From: Ancylobacter sp. Lp-2
GTDB lineage: Bacteria > Pseudomonadota > Alphaproteobacteria > Rhizobiales > Xanthobacteraceae
Direction of reading: 5' to 3'
Assembly (NCBI RefSeq): GCF_020523795.1
Contig: NZ_JAJALI010000003.1
Coordinates: forward strand, 124,001-188,000
Length of the DNA stretch: 64,000 bases
Position 1 is the first letter of the stretch, and each line of letters begins with the position of its first letter. A model generated the notes under the pieces. That model did no database searches, had not been told where the DNA came from, and saw nothing but the letters and a program-made list of their open reading frames with translations. Shown here in pieces: positions 35,658 to 51,416 of this stretch. A program made the translations under genes and the position numbers.

Positions 35658-35660
35658 CGC

Positions 35661-36101
35661 TCAGCGCTCCTCGATGTCCGGCACGAGGCCGGCCGCCTCG
35701 ATGCCGGCGATGGCACAGAGCTCGTCGATGTCGGACGTGTCGCCGCTGATACCGACCGCGCCGATGATCGGTCCGCCGGGTCGCTCGCGCACCAGCACGC
35801 CGCCGGGCACCGGCACCACCCGGCCATCGGTGGCGGCGGCGAGCGCGGTGAAGAAGCCGCCCATCTTCGCCGCCCGCGCCGCCAGCCCGCGCGAGGAGAT
35901 GCCCATGCCGAGCGCACCCCACGCCTTGCCATAGGCGATCTCGAAGCGGGCGATGCCGCTGCCGTCCTCGCGGCGCACCAGCTTCACATGGCCGCCGGCG
36001 TCGAGCACCACCACGGTGAGCGGCTGGGCGCTGCGCGTGCGGGCGTCCTCCAGCGCCACGCGGCCGATGATGTCGGCCCGGTCGAGGGTGAGCTCGCCCA
36101 T
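35661..36101 (-). CDS. GlcG/HbpS-family protein
   Basis: Predicted 146-residue cytoplasmic protein of the haem-degrading/GlcG domain family. Typical sequence includes LTVVVLDAGGHVKLVRRED, GALGMGISSRG and IIGAVGISGDTSDIDE. The family occurs in catabolic operons, for example beside glycolate and diol dehydrogenases, but its biochemical role is mostly unclear. It is wedged between two dehydrogenase genes with 1 and 3 bases between stops and starts, so it is part of their operon. Confidence 0.88.
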   Translation of the reverse strand: MGELTLDRADIIGRVALEDARTRSAQPLTVVVLDAGGHVKLVRREDGSGIARFEIAYGKAWGALGMGISSRGLAARAAKMGGFFTALAAATDGRVVPVPGGVLVRERPGGPIIGAVGISGDTSDIDELCAIAGIEAAGLVPDIEER

Positions 36102-36102
36102 C

Positions 36103-37023
36103 TCAGTCCCCCTTGCTGCCGTCTTTGCCGCGTGCGCCGGTCATGCCCTTGAGCACCGCGAACAGCGAGGCGGTGTCCTCCTTACCGCGCCCTTCCGCCA
36201 GCGCGGCGAAATAGAAGGGCAGGCTCGCCGCCATCAGCGGTGTCGGGCTGCGCATCTCGCGGGCGAAGTCCATGATGAGCTGCAGGTCCTTGATGTAGAT
36301 ATCCATCTTCATCGTGGCCGGCTCGTAGCGCTCCTCGATCATCATCGGCGCCCGTACGTCGAACATGCGCGAGCCGCCCGCACCCGGCCGGATCGCGTCA
36401 TAGACGAGGTTGAGGTCGAGCCCGGCGCGCTCGGCGAGCAGCAGCGCCTCGGCGGTCGAGAGGTTGTGGATCGTCACCAGGAGATTGGCGATGTATTTCA
36501 GCTTCATGCCGGTGCCGAACGCACCGCAATAGCGGACGTCGCGGGCAAAGCCGGCGAAGGCCGCCTCCACCTTGCGGAACGCCGCCTCCTCGCCGCTGGC
36601 ATAGATGGAGAGGTCGCGCTTCGCCGCCTGCGCGCCGGTGCCGCTGACCGGGCAGTCGAGCACATCGGCACCCTCTGCCTCCAGCGCGGCGCGGCAGGCC
36701 TCCTTGGCGTCGATGGGCAGCGTGCCCATCTCGCACACCACCGCACCGGGGCGCAGCGCCTCGGCGATCTCCTTCGTCACCGCCTCCAGCGCCTTCACCG
36801 AGGGCAGCGCCAGCAGCAGGATGTCGGCCGCCTCGGCCACCTCGCGCGCCGAGCCGACCGGCGTGCCGCCCTGCCCTGCCAGCGTCGCCATGGCCTCGTC
36901 GGCGACATCGGTGCCGACGACGCCGAACCCGGCGTCCAGCAGGTTCTTCGCATAGGCCGAACCCATGATGCCGAGACCGATGATGCCGACGGTCCCCTTG
37001 GTCTCACTCGTCACGCGCGTCAC
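36103..37023 (-). CDS. 3-hydroxyisobutyrate dehydrogenase-like (beta-hydroxyacid) dehydrogenase
   Basis: Predicted 306-residue NAD(P)-dependent enzyme. It has the Rossmann motif IIGLGIMGSAYAKNL, the family signature DCPVSGTGAQAAKRDL (substrate binding) and the catalytic Lys region GTGMKLKYIANLL. It oxidises a beta-hydroxyacid to a semialdehyde or reduces one. No ATG is near the Rossmann motif; the GTG at 37023 overlaps the preceding stop in GTGA and is preferred over a second GTG at 37014. Translation is probably coupled to the hydrolase gene upstream. Confidence 0.9.
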   Translation of the reverse strand: MTRVTSETKGTVGIIGLGIMGSAYAKNLLDAGFGVVGTDVADEAMATLAGQGGTPVGSAREVAEAADILLLALPSVKALEAVTKEIAEALRPGAVVCEMGTLPIDAKEACRAALEAEGADVLDCPVSGTGAQAAKRDLSIYASGEEAAFRKVEAAFAGFARDVRYCGAFGTGMKLKYIANLLVTIHNLSTAEALLLAERAGLDLNLVYDAIRPGAGGSRMFDVRAPMMIEERYEPATMKMDIYIKDLQLIMDFAREMRSPTPLMAASLPFYFAALAEGRGKEDTASLFAVLKGMTGARGKDGSKGD

Positions 37024-37883
37024 TCCGCCGCTTGCCTGGAAATGTCGAGAAACTCCGCCACCCGCGCATTGAAGCCGGCGACGTCCTCCATATTGGCGAT
37101 ATGCGCCACGCCGGGCAGGCTCACATGGGTCGCGCCGGGTGTCGCCGCGGCCATGGCGCGCATCGCCTCCGCCGGCGCCGCGCCGTCCTCGGCGCCGCCG
37201 ATGTAGAGCGTCTCGGACGTCAGGCGCGGCAGATGGCGCAGATAGTCGAGCCGCTTCAGCGCCTCGGCGCAGCCGATATAGCCGACCGGCGAGGTCGCCA
37301 GCACCATGCGGGCGGCGCGGTCCACCACTTCCGGCCGGTCCTGTCGCGTCGGCGCGGTGAACCAGCGCTCCATGGTGCCGGCGAGGATCGCGCCCATGCC
37401 GCCCGCCTCGACCGCCGCGATGCGCTGGTCCCAGCCGGCGACGAAGGGAGGCGGGGCATCGGCCCGCGCATCGGCGCAGATCAGCCGGTTCACCCGCTCG
37501 GGGTGGGCGAGACCAACGCCGAGCGCTGTCATGCCACCCATGGAGAGGCCGAGCACATCGGCCTGCCGCACGTCGAAATGGTCCATCACCGCGATGAAAT
37601 CCGCCACCAGCATGTCGAAGCTGTAGGGCCCGGCCGGCGCGCTGCTGCGCCCATGCCCGCGCGTGTCGTAGCGCAGCACGCGGTAGCTGCGGGTGAGGAA
37701 GGGGATCTGGTCGTCCCACATGGTGAGATCGGCGGCCAGCGAGTTCGACAGCACGATCCAGGGCAGGTGCACGGCGCCGTCCACGCGCACGGCGAGTTGC
37801 GCCTCGCCCGAGACGACGCGGTCCGTGATGCCGGCGTTCGTGATGGCAGTGTTGGTGCTGCCCGTCCCCTCGACTTGGTTCAT
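37020..37883 (-). CDS. alpha/beta hydrolase, 3-oxoadipate enol-lactonase-like
   Basis: Predicted 287-residue serine hydrolase. The nucleophile elbow is LGLSMGGM with Ser114; RYDTRGHGRSSAP and IVLSNSLAADLTMWDDQIP are typical of PcaD-like lactonases; the final His is in PGVAHIANMED. It would open a lactone or hydrolyse an ester. The N-terminal 20 residues are Thr/Asn-rich with no signal. It is the first gene of the four-gene operon, divergent from the cyclase-family operon across a 345-base gap. Confidence 0.87.
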   Translation of the reverse strand: MNQVEGTGSTNTAITNAGITDRVVSGEAQLAVRVDGAVHLPWIVLSNSLAADLTMWDDQIPFLTRSYRVLRYDTRGHGRSSAPAGPYSFDMLVADFIAVMDHFDVRQADVLGLSMGGMTALGVGLAHPERVNRLICADARADAPPPFVAGWDQRIAAVEAGGMGAILAGTMERWFTAPTRQDRPEVVDRAARMVLATSPVGYIGCAEALKRLDYLRHLPRLTSETLYIGGAEDGAAPAEAMRAMAAATPGATHVSLPGVAHIANMEDVAGFNARVAEFLDISRQAAE

Positions 37884-38228
37884 GGGGTGTCTCCTCTCCA
37901 TTGTCTTTGCGGGGCGTTTGCCGCCTCCGGCCCGTCGCGACGCTAAAGGCGCCCCGCGCGGGCGGCGAAACCATATGTTCTGATCCGCGCGATCACGATT
38001 GCTGATCGCCGCCCGACGTTGGCGTTCGCCCGGCGGGATATGCGCCTCCCCCACTTTCTTGCCGCTCCGGACGATTGACAAACCCGGCGCGCCGATCTGA
38101 TATTTATCAGACGATAAACAAATCGGATGCGGTTGCAAGCCCTGTCATCGCTACGCGGACAGCCGCACCCCGACCCGGCGGACGCCAACCGCCCGGCTGC
38201 GCAAAAATCGAAAAAAGTGAGGAAACCC
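37884..38228. other. divergent regulatory region
   Basis: The 345 bases between the alpha/beta hydrolase (leftward) and the cyclase-family gene (rightward) hold no supported gene. The right half has a promoter and palindrome, listed separately. The left part includes GATC-rich sequence around 37982-38008 (GATCCGCGCGATCACGATT), which may be a second regulatory site; I cannot assign it. Confidence 0.6.
38075..38118 (+). promoter_or_regulatory. promoter with TTTATC-N4-GATAAA operator (site A)
   Basis: A TTGACA box at 38075-38080 is followed about 17-18 bases later by a weak -10 (around 38098-38104). TTTATC (38103-38108) and GATAAA (38113-38118) are exact reverse complements around AGAC and cover the -10/start region, where a repressor would block RNA polymerase. 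It drives the cyclase-BKACE-Gfo-SDR operon. The same palindrome occurs at 42155, 48925 and, imperfectly, 48856. Confidence 0.7.
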
Positions 38229-39182
38229 ATGGATATCGACGTCGGACTCGCCGCCATCGAAGAAGCCTCGCGCAAGCTCTCCAACTGGGGACGCTGGGGC
38301 AAGGACGACCACAGCGGCACGCTCAACCATGTCACGCCGCAGGACATCGTCGAGGCCGCCGGACTCATCAAGACCGGTCGGGTGTTCTCGCTCGGCATCC
38401 CGCTCGACCGCGAGGGACCGCAGAACGGCCTGTTCGGCGGGCGCTTCAACCCGATCCACCAGATGCTCGCCACCGGCACCGACGCCATCACCGGCCAGCA
38501 GGACTGGAACAAGATCCGCTATGCCGACGACACGCTGAACCTCTGCGTGCAGGGCGCCACCCACTGGGACGCGCTCGGCCACATCTTCTACGAGGACAAG
38601 GCCTATAACGGCCACGATCCGCGCCACATCAACGCGCGCGGGCTCAACGTGCTCGGCATCGAGCATTCCAAGTCGAAGATGAACGGGCGCGGCGTGCTGC
38701 TCGACATCGCCCGCTTTCGCGACGTCGACTGGCTCAAGGACGGCGAGAGCATCTCCAATGACGAGCTCGACGCCTGCGCCAAGAAGCAGGGCGTGGAGAT
38801 CCGCCGCGCCGATTTCGTCATCGTCCGCACCGGCCAGATGGAACGCTGCCTCGCCGAGGGCGAATGGGGTGGCTATGCCGGCGGCGACGCGCCGGGCGTG
38901 AAGTTCGAGAACTGCTACTGGTGCCACGAGAAGGAGGTCGCGGCGATCTGCTCCGACACCTGGGGCGTCGAGGTGCGGCCGAACGAGACCACCGAGGCCA
39001 ACCAGCCCTGGCACTGGGTGGTGATCCCCGCCATGGGCCTGTGCATGGGCGAGATCTTCTACCTGAAGGAGCTCGCCGAGGACTGCGCGAAGGACGGCGT
39101 GTACGAGTTCTTCTTCTGCGGCCCGCCGCTGATCATCACCGGCGGCACCGGCTCGCCGATCAACCCGCAGGCGATCAAGTAG
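38229..39182 (+). CDS. cyclase-family (PF04199-type) metal-dependent hydrolase
   Basis: Predicted 317-residue enzyme of the kynurenine formamidase/isatin hydrolase superfamily. The metal motif HxDxxxH is in ATHWDALGH (His112, Asp114, His118), with another likely ligand in the acidic region near ICSDTWGVEV. Members hydrolyse amide or lactam bonds. The length of about 317 matches the larger subgroup annotated as cyclase-family protein. The ATG at 38229 begins MDIDVG; upstream sequence is promoter. It is the first gene of a four-gene catabolic operon. Confidence 0.87.
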   Translation: MDIDVGLAAIEEASRKLSNWGRWGKDDHSGTLNHVTPQDIVEAAGLIKTGRVFSLGIPLDREGPQNGLFGGRFNPIHQMLATGTDAITGQQDWNKIRYADDTLNLCVQGATHWDALGHIFYEDKAYNGHDPRHINARGLNVLGIEHSKSKMNGRGVLLDIARFRDVDWLKDGESISNDELDACAKKQGVEIRRADFVIVRTGQMERCLAEGEWGGYAGGDAPGVKFENCYWCHEKEVAAICSDTWGVEVRPNETTEANQPWHWVVIPAMGLCMGEIFYLKELAEDCAKDGVYEFFFCGPPLIITGGTGSPINPQAIK

Positions 39183-39258
39183 CGCCCGTCACCGGACGAC
39201 ATCGCCGGGCGGCGCGGGAATGCGCCGTCCCTCGCCGCTCTCATCATCGGAGCCGACC

Positions 39259-40191
39259 ATGGCTGCCGCCCGCAAGGTCATCGTCACCTGCGCCTGCACC
39301 GGCGCGATCCACACCCCCTCCATGTCGCCGCATCTGCCGGTGACGCCGGACGAGATCATCGCCGACGCGCTCGGCGCCGCCGAGGCCGGCGCGGCGATCC
39401 TGCATCTGCACGCCCGCAACCCGGAGACCGGCAAGCCGGACCAGACGCCCGAGGCGTTCGGCCGCTTCCTGCCGCAGCTCAAGCAGCAGACCAACGCCGC
39501 CATCAACATCACCACCGGCGGCAGCCCCTATATGAAGGTCGAGGAGCGCGTGCTGCCGGCGGCGCAATTCAAGCCGGAAGTCGCCTCGCTCAATATGGGC
39601 TCGATCAATTTCGGCCTCTACCACCTGCTCGACCGCTACAAGGACTTCAAGTTCGAGTGGGAGCGCCAGCATCTGGAAGCCACCCGCGACCTCGTTTTCC
39701 GCAACTCCTTCAAGGACATCGAGTACATACTCGCGACCTGCTACGGCAACGGCACCCGCTTCGAGTTCGAGTGCTATGACATCGCGCATCTCTACAATCT
39801 CAAGCATTTCCTCGACCGTGGCCTCGTCAAGCCGCCTCTGTTCGTGCAGTCGGTGTTCGGCATTCTCGGCGGCATCGGCACGCATCCCGAGGACATCATC
39901 CACATGAAGCGCACTGCCGACCGGCTGTTCGGCGACAAGTATCGCTGGTCGGTGCTCGGCGCCGGCGCCTCGCAGCTGCGCGTCGCCGCCATGGCCGCCT
40001 CGATGGGGGCGAATGTCCGCGTCGGGCTGGAGGATTCGCTGTGGCTCGGGCCGGGCGAACTCGCCACGTCCAGCGGCGCGCAGGTTCGCAAGGCGCGGCA
40101 GATCCTCGAAGGCATGGGCCTGGAGCTTGCCACACCCGATGAGGCGCGTGCCATGCTGGAGCTGAAGGGCGCCGACCAGGTCGCCTTCTGA
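39259..40191 (+). CDS. beta-keto acid cleavage enzyme (BKACE, DUF849 family)
   Basis: Predicted 310-residue zinc TIM-barrel enzyme. BKACE proteins condense a beta-keto acid with acetyl-CoA and split it to acetoacetate and a new CoA ester. The zinc motif is ILHLHARN (His49, His51); ITTGGSPYM, GVFGILGGIGTH-like QSVFGILGGIGTHPED and VGLEDSLWL are family blocks. The ATG at 39259 begins MAAARKVIVTCACTGA. It follows the cyclase gene by 76 bases. The specific keto acid is unknown, but its presence means the pathway makes a beta-keto acid intermediate. Confidence 0.9.
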   Translation: MAAARKVIVTCACTGAIHTPSMSPHLPVTPDEIIADALGAAEAGAAILHLHARNPETGKPDQTPEAFGRFLPQLKQQTNAAINITTGGSPYMKVEERVLPAAQFKPEVASLNMGSINFGLYHLLDRYKDFKFEWERQHLEATRDLVFRNSFKDIEYILATCYGNGTRFEFECYDIAHLYNLKHFLDRGLVKPPLFVQSVFGILGGIGTHPEDIIHMKRTADRLFGDKYRWSVLGAGASQLRVAAMAASMGANVRVGLEDSLWLGPGELATSSGAQVRKARQILEGMGLELATPDEARAMLELKGADQVAF

Positions 40192-40224
40192 CACGCCGTC
40201 TTCTGATCGAATGGATCCGCGAAC

Positions 40225-41226
40225 ATGCTGAACGTCGCCATCATCGGGCTTGGCCGCTGGGGCCAGACCCTCGTCGCCTCCGTGCAGGAGAAGAGCGACC
40301 TGCTGCGCTTCACCACCGGCGCCACCGGCAGCCGCGCCAAGGCGGAAGCCTTCGCCGCCGGCGCCGGCATCACCCTCAAGGACAGCTATGAGGAGGTGCT
40401 GGCCGATCCCGCCGTGGAGGCGGTGGTGCTGGCGACGCCGCATCTCCAGCACGCCGCGCAGATCGAGGCCGCCGCGCGCGCCGGCAAGCATGTCTTCGTC
40501 GAAAAGCCCTTCACCATGAGCAAGGCGAGCGCCGAGGCGGCGGTCGCGGCGAGCGAGGCCGCCGGCATCACGCTGGCGCTCGGCCACAACCGGCGCTTCC
40601 ATCCCCACATGCAGCGCCTGCGCGCGCTGGTGCGCGGCGGCGAGCTCGGCACCATCCTGCATTGCCACGCCGAGCTGAGCTCGCCCACCGGCCTGTTCCT
40701 GCCGAAGGGCGTGTGGCGCACCGATCCCGAGCAGTCGCCGGCCGGCGGCATGACCGGGCTCGGCATCCATCTCGTCGATTCGATGATCGACCTGTTCGGC
40801 GCGATCGAGGCCGTCGCCTGCCAGAGCGTCAACCGTGTCGCGCCGTCCGGCGCCGAGGACACCACCTCGGTGATGCTGCGCTTCGCAAGCGGGCAGACCG
40901 GCACCCTGCTCGCCTTCACCGCGACGGCACCGGTGTTCCGCTTCTCCGCCTATGGCGCGAAGGGGGTGGCCAGCATCACCACGCCGACGCTCGGCGGCTT
41001 CAGCCTCGAGCCCGCCCCGACCGCGCCGGGCCAGCCGGCGCCGGCCGCCACGCACGAGACCCTCGCCGGCTTCGACACGCTGCACGCCGAGCTGGAGGCC
41101 TTCGCGCGGGCGGTGCGCGGGCAGGCGCCCTATCCGATCCCGCCGGCCGACATGATCCACGGCGTCGCGGTGCTGGAAGCCATCGTCGCCGCCGTCGGCC
41201 GGGACCGCTTCGTCCCCGTCGCCTGA
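40225..41226 (+). CDS. Gfo/Idh/MocA-family oxidoreductase
   Basis: Predicted 333-residue NAD(P)-dependent dehydrogenase. Residues 1-120 form the Rossmann domain (VAIIGLGRWGQTL) with the EKP motif in HVFVEKPFT near residue 93. The C-terminal domain holds GHNRRFHPHMQRLR and GGMTGLGIHLVDSMIDLFG, the substrate and His catalytic region. Most characterised members act on sugars or cyclitols, but others act on different substrates. It follows the BKACE gene by 33 bases in the same operon. Confidence 0.9.
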   Translation: MLNVAIIGLGRWGQTLVASVQEKSDLLRFTTGATGSRAKAEAFAAGAGITLKDSYEEVLADPAVEAVVLATPHLQHAAQIEAAARAGKHVFVEKPFTMSKASAEAAVAASEAAGITLALGHNRRFHPHMQRLRALVRGGELGTILHCHAELSSPTGLFLPKGVWRTDPEQSPAGGMTGLGIHLVDSMIDLFGAIEAVACQSVNRVAPSGAEDTTSVMLRFASGQTGTLLAFTATAPVFRFSAYGAKGVASITTPTLGGFSLEPAPTAPGQPAPAATHETLAGFDTLHAELEAFARAVRGQAPYPIPPADMIHGVAVLEAIVAAVGRDRFVPVA

Positions 41227-41236
41227 GGAGATCAGC

Positions 41237-41995
41237 ATGTCCGACGCCGCGCCCCGCACCCTCATCGTCACCGGCGGTTCCCGGGGCATTGGCGCCGCCA
41301 TCGCCCGTGCCGCCGGCCGCGCCGGCTTCCGCGTCGCCCTGAGCTACAAGGGCGATGCGGCCGGAGCCGGGGCGGTCGCCGACGCCATCGCCGCCGCCGG
41401 GGGCGAGGCGCTGGCCGTCCGGGCCGACGTGGCGCGCGAAGAAGACGTCGTCGCGCTGTTCGCGGCGGTCGATACCCGCTTCGGGCCGCCGGACGTGCTG
41501 GTCAACAATGCCGGCGGCGTCGGCCCGCTCGGCCGTGTCGAGGCGATCACCGCCGCCACCCTCGCCGAGGTGATGGCGGTCAATGTGACCGGCAGCTTCC
41601 TGTGCTGCCGCGAGGCGGTGACGCGCATGTCGACCCGTCATGGCGGGCGTGGTGGCGTCATCGTCAACATGTCCTCGCGCGCCGCCGAGCTCGGCGGTGC
41701 CGGCGAATGGGTACACTACGCCGCCAGCAAGGGGGCGGTGGACAGCCTCACCATCGGCCTCGCCCGCGAGGTGGCGACGGAGGGCATCCGCGTGAATGCC
41801 GTCGCCCCCGGCCTGATCGCCACCGAGCTGCACGCCAGGGCCGGCGCGCCCGACCGGCTGGCGCGGCTCGCCCCCGCCATCCCGATGCAGCGCCCCGGCA
41901 CCGCCGAGGAAGTTGCCGACATCGTGATGTGGCTCGCCTCCCCCGCCAGCGCCTATGTCACGGGTGCGATCGTGCCGGTGGCCGGCGGGCGCTGA
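41237..41995 (+). CDS. short-chain dehydrogenase/reductase (FabG-like)
   Basis: Predicted 252-residue oxidoreductase. TGGSRGIGAA at 12-21 binds the cofactor; the NNAGG motif, Ser in VNMSSRAAELGG, and Tyr161/Lys165 in YAASK form the active site. The C-terminus AYVTGAIVPVAGGR is typical. GAGGAG precedes the ATG, 10 bases after the Gfo/Idh gene. It is the last gene of the site A operon; a hairpin follows its stop. Confidence 0.9.
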   Translation: MSDAAPRTLIVTGGSRGIGAAIARAAGRAGFRVALSYKGDAAGAGAVADAIAAAGGEALAVRADVAREEDVVALFAAVDTRFGPPDVLVNNAGGVGPLGRVEAITAATLAEVMAVNVTGSFLCCREAVTRMSTRHGGRGGVIVNMSSRAAELGGAGEWVHYAASKGAVDSLTIGLAREVATEGIRVNAVAPGLIATELHARAGAPDRLARLAPAIPMQRPGTAEEVADIVMWLASPASAYVTGAIVPVAGGR

Positions 41996-42029
41996 GGCGT
42001 TTTCCCTGGTGATGGCTCGATGATGCGGC

Positions 42030-42054
42030 GGCCTCCGTCGACGCGGCGGAGGCC
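42030..42054 (+). terminator. hairpin after SDR gene
   Basis: GGCCTCCG (42030-42037) pairs exactly with CGGAGGCC (42047-42054) around a 9-base loop, 35 bases after the operon's last stop. No T tract follows, so it is a moderate terminator candidate. Confidence 0.45.
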
Positions 42055-42130
42055 ACGACGCGCACGGGCGCGGATGCCGCGGCGCCGCATGGATTCAGCT
42101 TGCGAACGAAGCGCAAATCATCTTGCATCG

Positions 42131-42170
42131 TTGACATGATCGAAAATCCACGTGATTATCAATCGATAAA
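42131..42170 (+). promoter_or_regulatory. promoter with TTATC-N4-GATAA operator (site B)
   Basis: TTGACA (42131-42136), a 17-base spacer and GATTAT (42154-42159) form a near-consensus promoter. The palindrome TTATC (42156-42160), AATC, GATAA (42165-42169) overlaps the -10 box. It drives the ABC importer operon starting at 42358. The arrangement copies site A, implying the same repressor. Confidence 0.75.
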
Positions 42171-42357
42171 CAAGCAGACACCGCCGCGTTGAAAACCAGC
42201 GGCGGGCAACGCCAAGCTGACGCTACCAAGCCGACGATACCAAGCCGACCGGGACGCTCATCGATGCCCGCGCGGGAGTCGTGGAACAGCCCGGACGACG
42301 CTACCGAGAACAACAAGCCACCCGGCGACGATCCGGGGGCATCGGGAGAAGACGACC

Positions 42358-43386
42358 ATGGCAACACGACGCGGCGCGCTGGCGCTCGCGGCCGCTTTGG
42401 CGGCCCTCATCATCGCCCCCGGCGCCCTGCCGGCGGCGCAGGCCGACCCGGTGAAGATCCGCATCGGCTGGTCGACCATGCCGGGGCACCTGATCCCCGT
42501 GCTCTACAGCAAGCCGGACATCCTCAAATATTACGGCAAGAGCTACACGGTGGAGCCGATCCGCTTCCGGGGCTCCTCGCCGCAGATCACCGCCATGGCG
42601 GCGGGCGAGATCGACATGGCCGCCTTCGGGCCGCTGGTGCTGGCGCTCGCCGTCACCAATGCCCGGCTCGACGTGAAGGCGGTCGCCGACATCATCCAGG
42701 ACGGCGTCGAGGACTATCACAGCGAGACCTTCCTGGTCCGCAGCGATTCCGGCATCTCGAAGGTGACGGACATGAAGGGCAAGCGGGTCGGCACCAACGC
42801 CATCGGCTCGGCCTCCGATACCGCGATGCGGGCGATGTTCCGCAAGAGCAACATGCAGGACAAGCGCGACTACACCATGGTGGAGGTCGCCTTCCCGAAC
42901 ATTCCCGCCATGCTCGACGAGCACAAGATCGACCTCGGCACCGTGCTGCAGCCGATGTCCGACCAGTTGCTCGCCACCGGCAAGTACAAGGTGCTGTTCA
43001 CCTCCGAGGATGCCATGGGCCCCTCGCAGCTGGTGTTCCTCGCCGCCAACGGCAAGTTCCTGAACGACAACCGCGCGGCGCTGATGGACTTCTTCGAGGA
43101 CCATGTGCGCGCGGTGCGCTGGTTCACCGATCCGAAGAACCATGACGAGGCGGTGAAGATCATCGCCAACTTCATGCAGCAGCCGCCCGAGACGCTGCAA
43201 TACCTCTTCACCAAGGGGGATTATTTCCGCGATCCCTTCATGGTGCCGAACGTCAAGGCGCTGCAGGAGAGCATCGACATCGCCGTCGATCTCGGCCTCG
43301 CCCCGCGCGGCATCAAGGTCGATCCCGACTATGTCGATCTGAGCTTCGTCAAGGAAGCGCAGAAGCGGATCGAGGCCAGCCAATGA
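42358..43386 (+). CDS. ABC transporter periplasmic substrate-binding protein, NitT/TauT class
   Basis: Predicted 342-residue secreted binding protein. The signal peptide ends near PAAQA; the mature part has KIRIGWSTMPGHLIPVLYS, MAAGEIDMAAFGPLVLALA and the family-like GKRVGTNAIGSASDTAMRA. It would capture an organic solute in the periplasm for the two permeases downstream. First gene of the operon, with a 4-base overlap (ATGA) to the ATPase gene. The substrate is unknown but should be the compound degraded by the co-regulated enzymes. Confidence 0.9.
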   Translation: MATRRGALALAAALAALIIAPGALPAAQADPVKIRIGWSTMPGHLIPVLYSKPDILKYYGKSYTVEPIRFRGSSPQITAMAAGEIDMAAFGPLVLALAVTNARLDVKAVADIIQDGVEDYHSETFLVRSDSGISKVTDMKGKRVGTNAIGSASDTAMRAMFRKSNMQDKRDYTMVEVAFPNIPAMLDEHKIDLGTVLQPMSDQLLATGKYKVLFTSEDAMGPSQLVFLAANGKFLNDNRAALMDFFEDHVRAVRWFTDPKNHDEAVKIIANFMQQPPETLQYLFTKGDYFRDPFMVPNVKALQESIDIAVDLGLAPRGIKVDPDYVDLSFVKEAQKRIEASQ

Positions 43387-44216
43387 GCGTCACCCATCTC
43401 GCGCCGCCCCCGCGCAGCCGTGCCCACGCCGCCAGCAGCATCTCGATCAGCGACGTCTCCCACACCTATGGCGCCCGCACCGCCGGCGGCATGCTGGCGC
43501 TCGACGGCATCAACCTCGACATCGGCGACGGCGAGTTCCATTGCCTGCTCGGCCCCTCCGGCTGCGGCAAGAGCACGCTGCTGTATCTGATCGGCGGCTT
43601 CATCCCGGTGCAGGCGGGAATGATCTCCACATCGGCCGGACCGGTCACCGCACCGGGCCCGGATCGCAGTATCGTTTTCCAGAACTTCGCGCTGTTCCCG
43701 TGGAAGACCGTGAAGGACAACGTGCTTTACGGGCTGAAGAAGGCCGGCTTCAACGCCGCCGAGCGCGAGCAGCGCGCCCGGCATTACATCGACATGGTGC
43801 ACCTCACCGGCTTCGAGAACGCCTATCCCTCGCAATTGTCCGGCGGCATGCAGCAACGCGCCGCCATCGCCCGCACCCTGGCGGTGGATCCCGGCATCCT
43901 CCTGATGGACGAACCGTTCGGCGCACTGGACGCCCAGACCCGGCGCGTCATGCAGGAAGAGCTGCGCACCATCTGGCGCGACAGCCGCAAGACAGTGGTG
44001 TTCGTCACCCATGACGTGCAGGAGGCGGTGTTCCTCGCCGACCGCATCTCGATCATGAGCGCCCGGCCCGGCCGCATCCAGCACGTCATCGACGTCGACC
44101 TGCCCAAGGAGCGCGGCGAGGAAATCCTCGAGAACCGCGAGTTCATCGGCCTCAGCGAGCACATCTGGCGGCTGGTACGCGAGCAGGCGGTGGCGGCGAC
44201 GCGGGGGGCGCATTGA
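43383..44216 (+). CDS. ABC transporter ATPase, NitT/TauT class
   Basis: Predicted 277-residue ATPase. Walker A is GPSGCGKSTLLYL, the Q-loop is in IVFQNFALFPWKTV, signature LSGGMQQRAAIARTL, Walker B ILLMDEPFGALD and switch VFVTHDVQEAVFLAD. The N-terminal 20 residues are a variable extension. Start and previous stop overlap in ATGA, and the next ATG overlaps its own stop, so the set is translationally coupled. Confidence 0.93.
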   Translation: MSVTHLAPPPRSRAHAASSISISDVSHTYGARTAGGMLALDGINLDIGDGEFHCLLGPSGCGKSTLLYLIGGFIPVQAGMISTSAGPVTAPGPDRSIVFQNFALFPWKTVKDNVLYGLKKAGFNAAEREQRARHYIDMVHLTGFENAYPSQLSGGMQQRAAIARTLAVDPGILLMDEPFGALDAQTRRVMQEELRTIWRDSRKTVVFVTHDVQEAVFLADRISIMSARPGRIQHVIDVDLPKERGEEILENREFIGLSEHIWRLVREQAVAATRGAH

Positions 44217-45025
44217 TGAGCGACGTCCTCGCCGGCGGTCGCGGGCGGGGCCGCGTCGGCCCGTCGCTGTCCTATGCCGTCGTCAATACCGTGGTGCGCT
44301 TCACGCCGCTGCTGGTGCTCGCGCTCGGCTGGGAGTTCCTCGGCCTCAGCGGGCTGGTGTCGCGGCAGATGCTGCCGGGGCTCGGCGAGATCTTCGCCGC
44401 CTTTTCCGACATGCTGTTCGGCGGCGACCTCCTCTACAACACCCTGCGCTCGGTCAGCCGCGCCGCCGCCGGCCTCGGCGCGGCGGTGGTGGTCGGCATC
44501 TCCGCCGGCCTCTTAATGGCCTCGTTCCGCCCGGTGCGGCTGCTCATCAACCCCATCGTGCAGATCTTCTACCCGATGCCGAAATCGGCGCTGATCCCAG
44601 TGGTGATGATCTGGCTGGGGTTGGGCGATTCCTCGAAGATCCTGCTGATCTTCCTCGGCTGCCTGCTGCCGGTCATCGTCGGCACCTATAATGGCGCGCG
44701 CGGGGTGAACCCGTTCCTTTTGTGGTCGGCGGCGAGCCTCGGCGCCTCGCGCTTCGATGTACTGCGCGAGGTGGTGCTGCGCGGCGCCATGCCGGACATC
44801 CTCAATGGCTGCCGTACCGCGCTCGCCTTCTCCTTCATCTTGATGGTGAGCTCGGAATTCGTCATCGCCACCGACGGCGTTGGCTTCATGATCTCCTCGC
44901 TCGGCGACGGCGGCCAGTACCCGGCCATGTTCGCCGCCATCTTCTTCGTCGCTGGCATCGGGTTTGCCGCCGACCGCCTCTACGCGCTGCTGTCCCGGCG
45001 CCTGCTTCGCTGGAGGGAGGCATGA
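44216..45025 (+). CDS. ABC transporter permease 1
   Basis: Predicted 269-residue inner-membrane subunit with about six helices. The cytoplasmic coupling loop reads LLWSAASLGASRFDVLREV followed by VLRGAMPDILNG. The ATG at 44216 overlaps the ATPase stop by one base (TGATG); a TTG at 44213 is the alternative. Permease 2 follows directly with a 4-base overlap; the two may form a heterodimer. Confidence 0.9.
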   Translation: MSDVLAGGRGRGRVGPSLSYAVVNTVVRFTPLLVLALGWEFLGLSGLVSRQMLPGLGEIFAAFSDMLFGGDLLYNTLRSVSRAAAGLGAAVVVGISAGLLMASFRPVRLLINPIVQIFYPMPKSALIPVVMIWLGLGDSSKILLIFLGCLLPVIVGTYNGARGVNPFLLWSAASLGASRFDVLREVVLRGAMPDILNGCRTALAFSFILMVSSEFVIATDGVGFMISSLGDGGQYPAMFAAIFFVAGIGFAADRLYALLSRRLLRWREA

Positions 45026-45870
45026 TGAACATGGCTGACGCCAAGCCGCTCGCCGGCGCCGGCAAGTCGCCGGTCCAGAAGGCCCCGCGCCCATCGCGTC
45101 CGATCTCGCCGCGGATGGTCGACATCGCGGTGCAGGTCGCGGTGGTGGCGGCGCTCGCCGGCATCTGGGAATTCGGCGCCCGCTTCGGCGCGCTCAACCC
45201 CTTCCTGCTGCCGCCGCTCAGTGTGGTGCTGGGGCGGATCTGGGAAGACCTCATCGCCGGCACCGTGCCGGTCGATCTCGGCCTCACCCTCTACCGGGCG
45301 CTGACCGGCTTCGCCATCGGTGCCGTCATCGGCATTCCCACGGGCATATTGATGGCACGCTCGGCGCTTGTGCGCTGGTTCTTCGATCCACTGGTGTCGA
45401 TCGGCTTCCCGATGCCGAAGATCGCCTTCCTGCCGATCTTCATCCTGTGGTTCGACATCTACGACACCTCGAAGATCATCATGGTGGCGTTTTCCTGCTT
45501 CTTTCCCGTGGTGGCGGCGACCTGCGCCGGCTGCTCCAGCCTCGACAAATGGCCGATCTGGTCGGCCCGTTCCTTCGGGGCGAAGGAGCGGGAGCTCCTG
45601 TGGGAAGTCTATCTGCCGATGGCGATGCCGCAGATCCTCACCGGCCTGCAGGTGGCGCTGCCGACCGGCATGATCACCACCATCGTCACGGAGATGCTGA
45701 TGGGCGGACGCGGGGTGGGCGGCGCGATGATCATGGCCGGGCGCTTCGCCGACTCGGTCGGGGTGTTCGCCGGCATCGTGCAGATCATCATCCTCGGCTT
45801 CGTGGTGGTGAAGAGCCTGGAGATCGTCCGCCGCCGCCTGCTTATCTGGCATCCCGAAAGCCGCAAGTAA
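45022..45870 (+). CDS. ABC transporter permease 2
   Basis: Predicted 282-residue inner-membrane subunit. A 35-residue Pro/Lys-rich N-terminus precedes about six helices. The coupling loop is WPIWSARSFGAKERELLWE followed by VYLPMAMPQILTGL. GGAGGGAGG precedes the ATG at 45022, which overlaps the permease 1 stop. Two different permeases are less usual than a homodimer in NitT/TauT systems, but are known. Confidence 0.9.
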   Translation: MMNMADAKPLAGAGKSPVQKAPRPSRPISPRMVDIAVQVAVVAALAGIWEFGARFGALNPFLLPPLSVVLGRIWEDLIAGTVPVDLGLTLYRALTGFAIGAVIGIPTGILMARSALVRWFFDPLVSIGFPMPKIAFLPIFILWFDIYDTSKIIMVAFSCFFPVVAATCAGCSSLDKWPIWSARSFGAKERELLWEVYLPMAMPQILTGLQVALPTGMITTIVTEMLMGGRGVGGAMIMAGRFADSVGVFAGIVQIIILGFVVVKSLEIVRRRLLIWHPESRK

Positions 45871-45878
45871 CGGTGCAG

Positions 45879-46556
45879 ATGACGCAGCACCTGACGCCGA
45901 AGCTGCCGGCCCTCGTCTTCTACGGCGTGGACAGGGCGCCGGTCGATCCGTCCCGGTTCGACGGCCTCCTCCGGATGCGCCTGCTTCCGGGGGAGGTCCT
46001 GCGCCTGAACGACGAGGCCTTCGACCTGCCACCACCGGCGATCGGGCAGGAGAAGGTCGCGACCGACCTCCGGCTGGCGGAGCACCTCAAGCGTCTCGCC
46101 GGCGGCTGGAACCGCAACGCCGCGCACTTCATCGACGGCTATGTCGCGCATCTTCACGCCGTCATCGCCGCGCATCGCGAGGAGATCGCCGAGCGGCTCC
46201 GCCCGATGGCCGGCCTGTTCGCGCCGGAGGACGTGCTCTATTCCGCCCCGCTGCCACTGCCGCGCGCGCTGCTGCCGCTCGACGACGGTGGCGGGCCGGT
46301 GCCGGTCGACATGTTTCTCTGGCTGGGAGGCCGCGCGGAGGCCGTGCTGTTCGCCCCCTCGCCGCTGCTGCCGGCCGCCGAACGGCGACGTCGCGAGCGC
46401 CTTGCTGCCGCCGGGATCCGCGTGACGGTGCTGGCCGCCGCCGACCTCGCGAAACCGGATGTCGTCGCCGATCTGCTCGGCGAACGCGGCAACGGCTTCT
46501 GGCGCGACGAGGTGTTCCCCGTCGCGCCCGGCGCGCCGCGCCTGCCGGATTTTTAA
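45879..46556 (+). CDS. unrecognised protein at end of ABC operon
   Basis: Predicted 225-residue soluble protein; I recognise no family. It has no signal peptide or membrane helix. Visible features: an N-terminal VFYGVDRAPVDPSRFDGLL, a helical middle rich in Ala/His/Arg (HFIDGYVAHLHAVIAAHREE), and a C-terminal part with VDMFLWLGGRAEAVLFAPS, then an alpha/beta pattern. The ATG at 45879 (or GTG at 45873) is 8 bases after the permease stop, so it is co-transcribed with the importer. Its stop overlaps that of the convergent deacetylase-like gene by 3-4 bases. It may be a catabolic or accessory factor for the transported compound. Confidence 0.65.
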   Translation: MTQHLTPKLPALVFYGVDRAPVDPSRFDGLLRMRLLPGEVLRLNDEAFDLPPPAIGQEKVATDLRLAEHLKRLAGGWNRNAAHFIDGYVAHLHAVIAAHREEIAERLRPMAGLFAPEDVLYSAPLPLPRALLPLDDGGGPVPVDMFLWLGGRAEAVLFAPSPLLPAAERRRRERLAAAGIRVTVLAAADLAKPDVVADLLGERGNGFWRDEVFPVAPGAPRLPDF

Positions 46557-47464
46557 CCCGGCCCCGCCCCGCTCGCGCCGCGATACCAGTCGGCGATCTC
46601 CTCGCCGGTCATCATCGCCACCTGCCGGCGCGACAGCACATAATCGAGCAGTTCCTCGAAATAGCCGATGCGGTGCGGCACGCCTGTGAGGTAGGGGTGA
46701 GTGCTGATCGCCATCACCTTGGCGTTGTCCGCCCCCTCCTCCCACAGCCGGTCGAACTGGTCCACGCAGCGGCGCAGGAAGGCGTCGGAGGGCTGGTGCT
46801 GCACGGCGTGGACGACGATGTCGTTGGTCTCCACCGAATAAGGCACCGACAGCATCGGCCCGTGCGCGGTCGACAGCTCCAGCGGCAGATCGTCGATCAC
46901 CCAGTTGGCGACATAGCCGACGCCCGCCTCCTTCAGGAGGTCGAGCGTCTGGTCGTTCTCGGTGAGGCCGGGGCTCTCCCAGCCGGGCGGCGGCCGGCCG
47001 GTGAAGTCGCGGATGGTCTCCACCGTGTCGAAGATCGCTTTGCGCTGATCCTCCACATGGTGCATCGGCCGCTGCACATAGCCGTGCCCCATGAACTCCC
47101 AGCCGGCATCGCGCGCCGCCCGTGCCACTCGCTCATAGGAACGGCACACATGGCCGTTCACCGCGAAGGTAGCGCGCAGGCCACGCGACTCGATGGCTTT
47201 CAACAGCCGCCAGAAGCCGACCCGCATGCCGTATTCGTGCCAGGCCCAGTTAGGCAGGTCCGGCATCAGCGGCTGGCCCATGGGCGGCGGCAGCACGGTG
47301 CGCGGCATGGCGCGGGCGATGGACCATTCCTCGACATTGACGATGATCCACACCGCGACGCGGGCGTCGCCCGGCAGATGCAGGCGCGGCCGATCCGGGA
47401 AGGCAAGATAGGGCGCGCGCTCGCTGAGCAACGCCTTTGGCGGGGCGCTCGATGATGCGTTCAT
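46553..47464 (-). CDS. polysaccharide deacetylase-like (NodB fold) hydrolase
   Basis: Predicted 303-residue cytoplasmic protein of the carbohydrate esterase 4/PuuE-like fold. It has VAVWIIVNVEEWSIARAM, ATFAVNGHVCRSYERVARA, AGWEFMGHGYVQRP and WESPGLTEN, matching the NodB-like blocks seen in PuuE-type allantoinases and peptidoglycan or imidase-like deacetylases. The DD/HxxxH metal motif of true deacetylases is not clearly intact: the first Asp pair is VNVEE here. The ATG is 4 bases from the upstream dehydrogenase stop. In this setting an amide or ureide hydrolase is likelier than a cell-wall enzyme. Confidence 0.82.
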   Translation of the reverse strand: MNASSSAPPKALLSERAPYLAFPDRPRLHLPGDARVAVWIIVNVEEWSIARAMPRTVLPPPMGQPLMPDLPNWAWHEYGMRVGFWRLLKAIESRGLRATFAVNGHVCRSYERVARAARDAGWEFMGHGYVQRPMHHVEDQRKAIFDTVETIRDFTGRPPPGWESPGLTENDQTLDLLKEAGVGYVANWVIDDLPLELSTAHGPMLSVPYSVETNDIVVHAVQHQPSDAFLRRCVDQFDRLWEEGADNAKVMAISTHPYLTGVPHRIGYFEELLDYVLSRRQVAMMTGEEIADWYRGASGAGPG

Positions 47465-47467
47465 GGC

Positions 47468-48784
47468 TCACCCCGCCCGCCGCGCCGCCGTCGCATAGTC
47501 GACATTGCCGCCGCCATAGCGGCGCACACGGACATTGGCCTGCTCGGCATGGCCGAGAAAGCCTTCCAGCACGCAGAGCCGCGAGCAATATTCGCCGACC
47601 TCGGCGCTGGCGGCGTCGCTGGTCACCTTCTGATAGGTGCAGGTCTTGAGGAACTTGCCGACCCACAGCCCGCCGGTGTAACGCGCCGCCTTCTTGGTCG
47701 GCAGCGTGTGGTTGGTGCCGATCACCTTGTCGCCATAGGCGACATTGGTGCGCGGGCCGAGGAATAGCGCGCCGTAATTGCGCATGTTGGCGAGGAAATA
47801 ATCCGGGTCGGCGGTCATCACCTGCACATGCTCGGAGGCGATGCGGTCGGCCTCGACAACCATCTCCTCGACGCTGTCGCAGACGATCACCTCGCCGAAA
47901 TCGCGCCACGCCGCCGCGGCGATCTCCGCCGTCGGCAGGATGGTCAGCAGCCGCTCGACTTCCGCCATTGTCTCGCGGGCCAGCTTCTCCGAATTGGTGA
48001 GCAGCACCGCCGGCGAGGTTGGCCCGTGCTCGGCCTGCCCGAGAAGGTCGGTGGCGCAAATCTCGGCGTCCACCGTGTCGTCGGCGATCACCAGCGTCTC
48101 GGTCGGCCCGGCGAACAGGTCGATGCCGACCCGGCCGTAAAGCTGGCGCTTGGCCTCGGCGACGAAGGCATTGCCCGGCCCGACCAGCATGTCGACCGGC
48201 GCGATGCTCTCGGTTCCCAGCGCCATCGCCGCCACCGCCTGCACGCCGCCCAGCACCAGGATCTCGTCGGCGCCGGCGAGATGCATCGCCGCGACGATGG
48301 CTGGGTGCGGCCCGTTGCGGAACGGCGGCGCCGCCGCCACCACGCTCTTCACCCCCGCGACCTTCGCCGTCACCACGCTCATATGCGCCGAGGCGACCAT
48401 CGGGTATTTGCCGCCCGGCACATAACAGCCGACCCGCTCCACCGGCACGTTCTTATGGCCGAGGATCACCCCCGGCAGCGTCTCCACCTCGAGGTCGAGC
48501 ACGCAGGCGCGCTGCTTCTCGGCGAAGTTGCGCACCTGCGCCTGCGCGAAGCGGATGTCGTCGAGATCGGACTTCGACACGCTGGACAGCGCCGCCTCGA
48601 TCTCCTGGTCGGACAGGCGGAAGCTCGCCGGCGACCATTTGTCGAAGCGCTCGGAATAGGCGCGGACAGAGGCGTCGCCGCCGGTCTCGATTTCCTTGAG
48701 GATGGTCTCGACGGTGGCGCGCACCTGCGCGTCGGCATCGGCGCGCTCCTCGACGGAACGCGCGGTCTTGAGATGGCGGGCCAT
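47468..48784 (-). CDS. histidinol dehydrogenase-family alcohol dehydrogenase (HpsN-like paralogue)
   Basis: Predicted 438-residue zinc, NAD-dependent dehydrogenase of the HisD fold. Zinc ligands are kept: Gln/His in [11 protein letters not shown], Asp in [15 protein letters not shown], and His in [12 protein letters not shown]; the catalytic Glu-His is in ASEHVQVM. No histidine biosynthesis gene is near and expression appears to be from a catabolic promoter, so it is probably a paralogue oxidising another amino- or sulfo-alcohol, as HpsN (dihydroxypropanesulfonate dehydrogenase) does. ATG at 48784. It heads the leftward two-gene operon with the deacetylase-like gene. Confidence 0.85.
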
Positions 48785-48855
48785 GTTTTCCTCCCGGCGC
48801 CGACGTAGCGGCACCCGCTTCGATGCACCTTGCATCCGCTAGCGATCGATTGTTA

Positions 48856-48892
48856 TTTATCGAGTGAAAACTAAATCGAGCGACAGTGTCAA
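48856..48892 (-). promoter_or_regulatory. leftward promoter with imperfect operator (site C)
   Basis: Read on the minus strand, TTGACA is at 48892-48887. Downstream, TTTATC (48856-48861) and GAAAAC (48866-48871) around GAGT make an imperfect copy of the TTTATC-N4-GATAAA palindrome, covering the -10 area. It should control the histidinol dehydrogenase-like gene starting at 48784. Confidence 0.5.
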
Positions 48893-48924
48893 GCCTGCCT
48901 TGCCCACCACCTTCCTTGATGTTA

Positions 48925-48940
48925 TTTATCGAACGATAAT
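48925..48940 (+). promoter_or_regulatory. TTATC-N4-GATAA operator (site D)
   Basis: TTATC (48926-48930), GAAC and GATAA (48935-48939) are exact reverse complements. The site sits 20 bases before the VOC gene ATG at 48959 and just before an AAGGAGG ribosome site (48946-48952). It matches sites A and B, and lies 54 bases from site C, so both divergent operons here should respond to the same regulator. Confidence 0.65.
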
Positions 48941-48958: not shown

Positions 48959-49435
48959 ATGAAAGCCACCGGCCTCAACCATCTGTCGATCGGCGCCAGG
49001 GACGTCGACGCCTCCGTGCGCTTCTATGTCGAGATGTTCGGCATGGAGGTGATCCCAACCTATAATTTCGGCTTCCGCACCCAGTATCTGCGCTGCGGCG
49101 ACCAGCAGCTGCACGTCTTCGGCCTGCCCGACACCACGCCGCACTACCAGCACTTCGCCATCAATGTGGACGACTTCATGGGCGTGTATGAGCGCGCCCG
49201 CGACGCCGGCCTCATCGACCACAAGACCTTCGGCAACGGCGTCAACGAGATGCCGGACGGCACGGTGCAGCTCTATCTGCGCGATCCCGGCGGCAACCTC
49301 GTCGAGGTCGACTGGCCGGACGTCGCCAGCCTCGACACCGCCCGCATTCCCGAATTGAAGCGCCTCGCCGACCGCTTCGAGCAGGTGGGCGAGAACCTCG
49401 AGGCGACGCTGTTCCTCAACCGCCGGCGCGCCTGA
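48959..49435 (+). CDS. VOC-superfamily (glyoxalase/extradiol dioxygenase-like) protein
   Basis: Predicted 158-residue single- or paired-module metal enzyme. It begins TGLNHLSIGARDVDASVRFY with a His8 ligand and later HFAINVDDFMGVY and MPDGTVQLYLRDPGGNLVEVDW, the two metal-ligand-bearing strands of the VOC fold. A strong AAGGAGG site is 7 bases before the ATG. A monooxygenase follows after 11 bases. It might be a ring-cleaving dioxygenase or isomerase in the pathway. Confidence 0.88.
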   Translation: MKATGLNHLSIGARDVDASVRFYVEMFGMEVIPTYNFGFRTQYLRCGDQQLHVFGLPDTTPHYQHFAINVDDFMGVYERARDAGLIDHKTFGNGVNEMPDGTVQLYLRDPGGNLVEVDWPDVASLDTARIPELKRLADRFEQVGENLEATLFLNRRRA

Positions 49436-49446
49436 GGGAGGAAGCG

Positions 49447-50685
49447 ATGACCGACACCGCCTCGCCCCTCGTCTCCCCTGCCCTCGCCGCGCCGCGTGCC
49501 CTGCGTTCGCCGGACGAGCAGCGCCATGACGACTTGCTCCAGCGCGCCACCGACCTCGCCTCGGTCTTCGCCGAGCGGGCGCCGCGCGCCGAGGAGTTGC
49601 GCCGGCTGCCGCCGGAGAACGAGCGCGACCTGCATGATAGCGGCCTCTACCGCATGCTGCAGCCCCGGGCGGTCGGCGGCGCCGAGCTCGGCTATGAAAG
49701 CCTGATCACCATCGGCGCGGCGCTCGCCGCCGGCTGCGCCTCCACGGCGTGGAACCTCACCAATCTCGCCAGCCACCACTGGATGCTGGCGATGTTCCCG
49801 CCCGCCGCGCAGGACCGCATCTGGAAGGAGGATCCCGACGCGCTGATCGCCTCCTCCTTCGTGTTCCCGGCCGCGAAGGTGACGAAGGCGCCGGGCGGCT
49901 ATGTCGTCTCCGGCCGCTGGCCATTCTCCTCCGGCGTCGACGTCTGCTCGTGGAACATGCTGGCCGGCATCGTCCGCGCCGAGGGCGAGGCGCCCGATCA
50001 CCGTGTCTTCCTCGTCCCCCGCGCCGACTACCGCATCCTCGACACCTGGCACGTCACCGGCCTCAAGGGCACCGGCTCGAACGACGTCGTCTGCGAGGAG
50101 GTGTTCGTGCCGGAGGAGATGACCGTCTCGGTCGCCGACCTCAAGGGCGGCACGACACCGGGCAGCGAACGCCACCCCGCCCCGCTCTACCGGCTGCCGG
50201 TCTTCGCGCTGTTCCCCGCCATCCTGTCCGGCGTCGGGCTCGGCAATGGCGAGGGCGCGCTCACCGATTACGTCGCTTCCACCCGCAAGCGCGCGGCCAA
50301 CTACACCGGCGCGCGGCTGGCCGAATTGCAGAGCCTGCAGATCCATGTCGGCAACGCCGCCGCCCGGCTCAGCCATGCGAGGCGGATGATGCTCGCCATC
50401 TGCGAGGAGGCGATGCGCGATGCCGAGCGCGGCCATGTGCCGGACCTGGTGACGAAATTCGCCTATCGCCGCGACCTCGCCTTTGCGACCCAGCTCACCA
50501 CGCAGGCGGTCGACGAGATCGACGCCGGCAGCGGCGCGCAGGCACTTTACCTCGGCGGAAGCCAGCAGCGCCGCTTCCGCGACGCCCATGCTATAAGCGC
50601 GCATATCGCCTTCAGTACCGATGTCGCCAATGCCGCCTTCGGGCGTCTGGCGCTCGGCCTCGATGCCGATAATCCGGTCGTGTGA
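49447..50685 (+). CDS. acyl-CoA dehydrogenase-like flavin monooxygenase (group D) or dehydrogenase
   Basis: Predicted 412-residue protein with the acyl-CoA dehydrogenase fold. Residues 30-150 are the helical N-terminal domain, with GYESLITIGAALAAGCASTAW; the middle beta domain has YVVSGRWPFSSGVDVCSW and VTGLKGTGSNDVVCEEVFVP; the C-terminal helices follow. The SGRWPFSSG stretch is typical of group D monooxygenases (HpaB, HsaA, DszC types) that use reduced flavin from a separate reductase. The catalytic Glu of true dehydrogenases is not seen. It lies between the VOC and TetR genes. Confidence 0.85.
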   Translation: MTDTASPLVSPALAAPRALRSPDEQRHDDLLQRATDLASVFAERAPRAEELRRLPPENERDLHDSGLYRMLQPRAVGGAELGYESLITIGAALAAGCASTAWNLTNLASHHWMLAMFPPAAQDRIWKEDPDALIASSFVFPAAKVTKAPGGYVVSGRWPFSSGVDVCSWNMLAGIVRAEGEAPDHRVFLVPRADYRILDTWHVTGLKGTGSNDVVCEEVFVPEEMTVSVADLKGGTTPGSERHPAPLYRLPVFALFPAILSGVGLGNGEGALTDYVASTRKRAANYTGARLAELQSLQIHVGNAAARLSHARRMMLAICEEAMRDAERGHVPDLVTKFAYRRDLAFATQLTTQAVDEIDAGSGAQALYLGGSQQRRFRDAHAISAHIAFSTDVANAAFGRLALGLDADNPVV

Positions 50686-51416
50686 TCAACGCGACGGCGG
50701 ACGAAAGGAACGTGACGACACCGATGGCGGGACGCTCATCCTCATTGGCCGCGGCGGAGGGCAAGGCCCTCGCGCCACGGCGCACGCGCAACAAGCCGGA
50801 AGAACGGCACAAGGAGTTCGTCCGCAAGGCCATCGAGCTGTTCGCCGAGGTCGGCTTCGAGGCCGGCACCCGCGAACTCGCCCAGCGGCTCGGCGTCACC
50901 CAGCCGCTGCTCTACCGCTATTTCCCCAGCAAGGACGACCTGATCGCCGCCGTCTACCAGGAGATCTACGTCAATCGCTGGAAGCCACAATGGCGCGAGG
51001 GCCTGCTCGACGAAAGCCGGCCGATCCGCGAGCGCATCGTCGCCTTCTACGAGGATTATGCCGGCACGATCTTCACCCCCGAGTGGATCCGCATCTATCT
51101 CTTTGCCGGCCTGCGCGGCGTCGACATCAACCGGCGCTACGCCACCACCGTCGAGGAGCAGATCCTGCGGCCGATCACCCTCGCCACCCGCACCAGCTTC
51201 GGCCTCGGGGGCGGCGAGCCGCCGACCCCGGAAGAGGTCGAGCTGTTCTGGACCCTTCAGGGCGGCATCTTCTACTATGGCGTGCGGGAGATCGTGTACC
51301 GGTTCCCCATGCCGGTGGACCGGCCGACCATGATCCGCAACGCCGTCGACACTTTCCTGACCGGCGTCGGCCCGGTGCTGAAGCGGCTGGCCGAGCGCGG
51401 CGACGCCCCGGCTTAG
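50682..51416 (+). CDS. TetR-family transcriptional regulator
   Basis: Predicted 244-residue repressor. The DNA-binding region has LAQRLGVTQPLLYRYFPSK; the rest is a helical ligand domain that I cannot place. The GTG at 50682 overlaps the monooxygenase stop in GTGA; an ATG at 50724 would also fit the domain. As it is in the VOC-monooxygenase operon, it probably regulates that operon or the whole region. Confidence 0.87.
   Translation: MINATADERNVTTPMAGRSSSLAAAEGKALAPRRTRNKPEERHKEFVRKAIELFAEVGFEAGTRELAQRLGVTQPLLYRYFPSKDDLIAAVYQEIYVNRWKPQWREGLLDESRPIRERIVAFYEDYAGTIFTPEWIRIYLFAGLRGVDINRRYATTVEEQILRPITLATRTSFGLGGGEPPTPEEVELFWTLQGGIFYYGVREIVYRFPMPVDRPTMIRNAVDTFLTGVGPVLKRLAERGDAPA

Follow-up and report, generated by a model that had tools for sequence, protein, structure and literature searches.

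A conserved local regulon centred on a TetR-family gene and a TTATC-N4-GATAA operator in Ancylobacter sp. Lp-2

We found that a catabolic gene cluster in a 64,000-nucleotide stretch (the window) of the 5.59 Mb genome of Ancylobacter sp. Lp-2 forms a conserved local regulon centred on a TetR-family regulator, with control of an ordinary kind. Comparative sequence evidence makes it very probable that this TetR protein binds the palindrome TTATC-N4-GATAA at four places spanning approximately 11 kb, and represses the promoters of the cluster. A motif scan of the window located exact copies at 38104-38117 (S1), 42156-42169 (S2) and 48926-48939 (S3b), in agreement with the original prediction, and a fourth copy with one mismatch (S3a), which had been placed at 48856-48871 and lies at 48857-48870. 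These four copies at one mismatch or fewer compare with a mean of 0.13 in shuffled sequences, among which the largest count was 2. The symmetrised extended consensus over 63 sites is TATTTATCRNNYGATAAATA, wider than the 14-nucleotide motif first described; the corresponding matrix includes the window's own sites, and the rows of the closest relative (G004) and of an Aurantimonadaceae metagenome-assembled genome (MAG) were dropped as near copies.

The motif is not common at unrelated positions in the genome. Exact copies number three, all of them the window sites, against one for a reversed-pattern control. With up to one mismatch there are 22 copies against 12 for the control, indicating that one-mismatch copies outside the cluster are near background and mean little; the 18 such matches amount to about 0.04 per 12 kb, a density that would be higher in less GC-rich genomes. 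Among all perfect 5-N4-5 palindromes, TTATC was the most enriched half-site, with 34 occurrences against 0.01 expected, in 12 of 12 homologous clusters. The probability of at least three exact sites in 10.8 kb is approximately 3e-12 against the background given by the genomes of the genus that lack the TetR (two exact sites in 18 genomes, sizes rounded). Scored with the 63-site matrix, three one-mismatch places in the window's genome reached 13.7, 6.7 and 7.0 bits, versus 33-44 bits for the four cluster sites. A sequence-only model built on 39 sites in 10 genomes, neither G004 nor the window's own among them, returned the four cluster sites alone at E <= 10 in the window's whole genome, and thus no further targets among the 150 of 482 candidates that were scored; applied to 12 genomes of the genus without the TetR, it gave a single weak place, in G012, and no match in the other 11.

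Comparison of 30 genomes of the genus, the window's included, demonstrated that the operator follows the TetR gene. An orthologue (75-100% identity) is present in 12 genomes, all with three to five exact sites, while 16 of the 18 genomes without one have no exact site and the other two (G019 and G028) have one each (Fisher 1.2e-8, for genomes that are not independent). The motif is also conserved at the same promoters of homologous clusters: S2, S3a and S3b were found in 12/12 clusters of the genus, and S1 in all 11 that cover that stretch, the cluster of G021 ending inside the BKACE gene. S3a and S3b are kept in other families as well, in Antarcticirhabdus, the Aurantimonadaceae MAG and Methylobrevis (TetR identity 60-73%), and the S3a core, TTATCGAGTGAAAA, is identical in 15/15 loci, three of them from these other families, showing that its asymmetry is itself conserved. 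Paralogous TetRs (43-49% identity) at L078, L079 and L080 have the same motif beside cyclase and histidinol dehydrogenase (HDH) genes or 5' of themselves. Together, rarity in the genome and retention at the same promoters in relatives strongly support the earlier proposal of one local regulon with one shared operator. As separate observations, seven genus clusters (L065, L067, L068, L070, L071, L072 and L075) have, inserted between the deacetylase gene and the HDH gene, a second ABC-type unit with another GntR-like gene, preceded by its own TGATC-N4-GATAA site, and a lone strong operator copy of 31.7 bits occurs in the closest relative, on a different contig (G004:C30:55895-55908; L091:3896).

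Promoter geometry is equally well conserved. It had been noted that three of the sites lie just downstream of a TTGACA, and this was borne out (Table 1). In relatives, S1 has TTGACA at 22-23 bp in 11/11 clusters, S2 has TTGAC(A/T) at 19 bp in 12/12 clusters, and S3a has a minus-strand TTGAC at 15-16 bp in 15/15 loci. S3b is preceded by TTGCCC, not TTGACA, and a TTGC/TTGA-type hexamer 20-22 bp upstream recurs in 15/15 loci. Of the three best sigma-70-like matches in the region, two (38075-38104 and 42131-42159, 10/12 each) fall at S1 and S2, and the third, at 49038, is within the VOC gene. Each of the four operators reaches into the expected -10/+1 region, and none is upstream of the expected -35. 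Repressor sites are usually placed in this way, which suggests repression by exclusion of RNA polymerase. A TetR dimer would bind the four sites and, covering -10/+1, keep the polymerase from the cyclase-BKACE operon, perhaps also from the divergent alpha/beta-hydrolase operon through S1, from the ABC importer, from the HDH-deacetylase operon and from its own VOC-HsaA-TetR operon, until its C-terminal domain is occupied by the imported compound or by some metabolite of the pathway, which releases the repressor from the DNA. The TetR gene begins, at a GTG codon, before the HsaA-like gene has ended, so that transcription of both from S3b, and thereby autoregulation, is probable. It is plausible, from the joint control and the conserved linkage, that all four units serve one compound. 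It is very unlikely that the TetR acts instead as an activator, or as a dual regulator at some of the sites. The invariant asymmetric core of S3a may mean that this site is tuned differently from the others, but the four operators are placed as those of a repressor would be, and the odd base of S3a may be explained by the HDH promoter, whose expected -10 region includes it.

The original prediction named both the TetR and the adjacent GntR/FCD gene as candidate repressors; the former candidacy is supported, while the distribution of the GntR/FCD gene is independent of the sites, and the TetR is most likely the binder. FCD regulators often control catabolic genes, and the GntR gene directly follows the TetR gene in the genus clusters and in Methylobrevis. 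However, G003 keeps a 75% GntR orthologue, beside LVIVD, CobW and alpha/beta hydrolase genes and a relative of the 45882-46556 protein, and lacks a TetR (E <= 1e-20), any exact site genome-wide and any one-mismatch site in the 20 kb fetched. Seven loci (L052, L053, L078, L080, L104, L105 and L106) have this type of TetR and the sites with no GntR orthologue in the fetched stretch, to which this absence refers: the genome of L078 (G002) does have one, in its main cluster. More distant GntR relatives occur in L052 and L053 (24%) and, 6.5 kb away, in L079 (28%). Operator and GntR/FCD gene do not travel together across genomes, and we rejected the latter as operator binder; that it should nevertheless be the repressor, with the TetR acting elsewhere, is highly improbable.

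The TetR protein itself has the expected features of its family. Its N-terminal helix-turn-helix is recognised by the TetR_N family (PF00440). The AlphaFold2 model (mean predicted local distance difference test score, pLDDT, 84.6) has ten helices, with an all-helical body in which helix 3 is the recognition helix (residues 74-80, carrying QPLLYRY) and a C-terminal ligand domain, and its Foldseek matches up to E 3e-5 are solved TetR-family regulators. Among 32 homologues, the helix sequence TQPL[LI]YRYFP was present in 18/18 site-associated TetRs versus 0/14 others, two of which carry TQPLLYKYFP. The site label required 2 changes on a rapidly built tree, which drew long-branch warnings, compared to a shuffled mean of about 10.7. 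For a later test, 385 genomes of the class were searched at E <= 1e-45, which added 8 TetRs from other orders to the window's two, and 11-12.5 kb around each of the 8 was scanned. Six of the seven with TQPL[LI][YF]RYFP had a site at one mismatch or fewer, exact in three cases: L104 has two exact sites, L106 an exact site about 80 bp ahead of the TetR match, and L105 one exact and one one-mismatch site 5' of paired HsaA and TetR genes, in a neighbourhood that also includes two cyclases and an HDH fragment. L103 has a site with at most one mismatch, and L109, whose helix reads TQSLLFNYF, has none in the stretch scanned.

Several points weigh against the TetR as reader of this operator. Close relatives are not independent witnesses, and stray sites occur in genomes lacking the orthologue (exact in G019 and G028, weak in G012). 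The genome-wide model search scored 150 of 482 first-look candidates, and flanks of 1.5 kb were the basis for classing the 14 TetRs as having no site, against larger clusters for the 12 genus orthologues. In the later test the L107 site is weak (15 bits), in L110 the TetR precedes the site by about 870 bp, and L108 has the helix with no site in its 11-12.5 kb. Finally, the view that no common regulator is involved, and that the palindromes arose by chance or simply belong to promoters, can appeal to AT-rich -10-like sequence recurring in promoters and to one-mismatch matches near background, but it is already in large part refuted and scarcely credible, given that the exact sites are confined to the cluster, form the top 5-N4-5 palindrome and track the TetR across genomes.

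The comparative evidence connects an operator to a hitherto unstudied subfamily of TetR regulators. The closed set of four operators would mark which genes belong to one pathway, and offers a ready inducible-promoter test for finding its substrate. Local TetR-family catabolic repressors with palindromic operators, such as RutR, PsrA and PaaR, are well known. The Ancylobacter system resembles them in its cluster-encoded TetR, the palindromic operator over the promoter and the joint control of importer and enzymes, and differs in its TTATC half-site with N4; a literature search found no paper with these operator strings and, among the records listed, no TetR regulon with this operator. As a side observation, a sister TetR clade with the helix THSAIYRHFP has TGACC-N4-GGTCA 56-135 bp ahead of the TetR match in 5/8 loci, four of the five being close relatives in one genus, and in 0/15 other loci tested (sister-clade loci: G000:C22:743542-744168, seen in L038 and L081, and relatives L030, L034, L036 and L039). 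The same geometry with another half-site fits an operator specified by the helix.

Table 1. Operator sites, regulators and genes of the cluster, in window coordinates.
Feature	Positions	Strand	Match	Context
S1	38104-38117		exact	divergent gap, cyclase-BKACE operon (+) / alpha/beta-hydrolase operon (-); 23 bp past TTGACA 38075-38080 (+)
S2	42156-42169		exact	5' of ABC importer; 19 bp past TTGACA 42131-42136 (+); overlaps predicted -10
S3a	48857-48870		one mismatch, TTATCGAGTGAAAA	promoter of HDH-like/deacetylase operon (-); 16 bp from minus-strand TTGACA 48892-48887
S3b	48926-48939		exact	promoter of VOC-HsaA-TetR(-GntR) operon; end 19 bases ahead of VOC start codon
TetR-family regulator	50682-51416	+	PF00440, 4.2e-15, 55.7 bits (cut-off 24)	proposed binder
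GntR/FCD regulator (CsiR-like)	51461-52246	+	PF00392, PF07729; NF008576 CsiR 176 bits, below cut-off 218	not the binder on present evidence
Cyclase-family hydrolase	38229-39182	+	PF04199	closest solved chain 5ibz_A, uncharacterized
BKACE, 3,5-dioxohexanoate type	39220-40191	+	PF05853; NF053538 542 bits (cut-off 430)	
Gfo/Idh/MocA-type oxidoreductase	40225-41226	+		
SDR oxidoreductase	41237-41995	+		
ABC importer	42358-45870	+		NMT1/SsuA-like binding protein 42358-43386, ATPase 43383-44216, permeases 44213-45025 and 45022-45870
Protein adjoining importer genes	45882-46556	+	no Pfam or NCBIfam match	
Polysaccharide-deacetylase-fold protein	46553-47464	-	PuuE-like, below cut-off	
HDH-like (histidinol-dehydrogenase-family) enzyme	47468-48835	-	nearest solved relative HpsN, 406 bits	
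VOC protein	48959-49435	+	glyoxalase/dioxygenase superfamily	
HsaA-like protein	49447-50685	+	308 bits, below HsaA cut-off 450	flavin-dependent monooxygenase/acyl-CoA dehydrogenase fold
Divergent operon	34920-37883	-		
Alpha/beta hydrolase	37020-37883	-	PcaD-like, just below cut-off	divergent operon
HIBADH-type dehydrogenase	36103-37014	-		divergent operon
HbpS-like protein	35661-36101	-		divergent operon
SDR	34920-35657	-		divergent operon

The gene content of the four units agrees with the original prediction, except that the enzyme described there as an amide/lactam hydrolase can be called solely a PF04199 cyclase-family protein. In Clostridium scatologenes (PMC10470551), a cyclase-family enzyme, a dehydrogenase and a 3,5-dioxohexanoate BKACE are reported to degrade dihydrophloroglucinol, and genes for a cyclase-family hydrolase, a dehydrogenase and a 3,5-dioxohexanoate BKACE stand side by side in both clusters. 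Compared with the C. scatologenes phloroglucinol cluster, the Ancylobacter cluster adds a Gfo/Idh protein, an ABC importer, the HDH-like enzyme, an HsaA-like oxygenase and a VOC protein. No phloroglucinol reductase was identified among the annotated genes of the Ancylobacter cluster, which include SDRs.

The HDH-like enzyme belongs to the same histidinol-dehydrogenase family as HpsN, a dehydrogenase of 2,3-dihydroxypropane-1-sulfonate (DHPS), in which the diagnostic His126 is reported to recognise the sulfonate (8v35; PMC11382572). With chain index 127 taken as His126, the aligned residue in the Ancylobacter enzyme is Met146, and on this comparison we rejected a role as DHPS dehydrogenase. DHPS is therefore an unlikely substrate, and the predicted protein probably oxidises a non-sulfonate alcohol. 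Pfam scans of the neighbours in L104, L105, L078 and L079 gave no clear substrate.

We regard as speculative, and rather less probable than otherwise, the joint proposition that a broad alphaproteobacterial TetR subfamily reads TTATC-N4-GATAA via TQPL[LI][YF]RYFP and its THSAIYRHFP sister clade reads TGACC-N4-GGTCA, as a small helix-to-operator code, and that the cluster described here would encode an undescribed aerobic pathway in which a cyclic compound is opened by the cyclase-family hydrolase and degradation ends at 3,5-dioxohexanoate. Subunits of Mo-hydroxylase type were also observed near two of the paralogous cyclase/HDH/TetR clusters (L079:5235-8578 and L078:6349-7320), a hint at a cyclic or heteroaromatic substrate.

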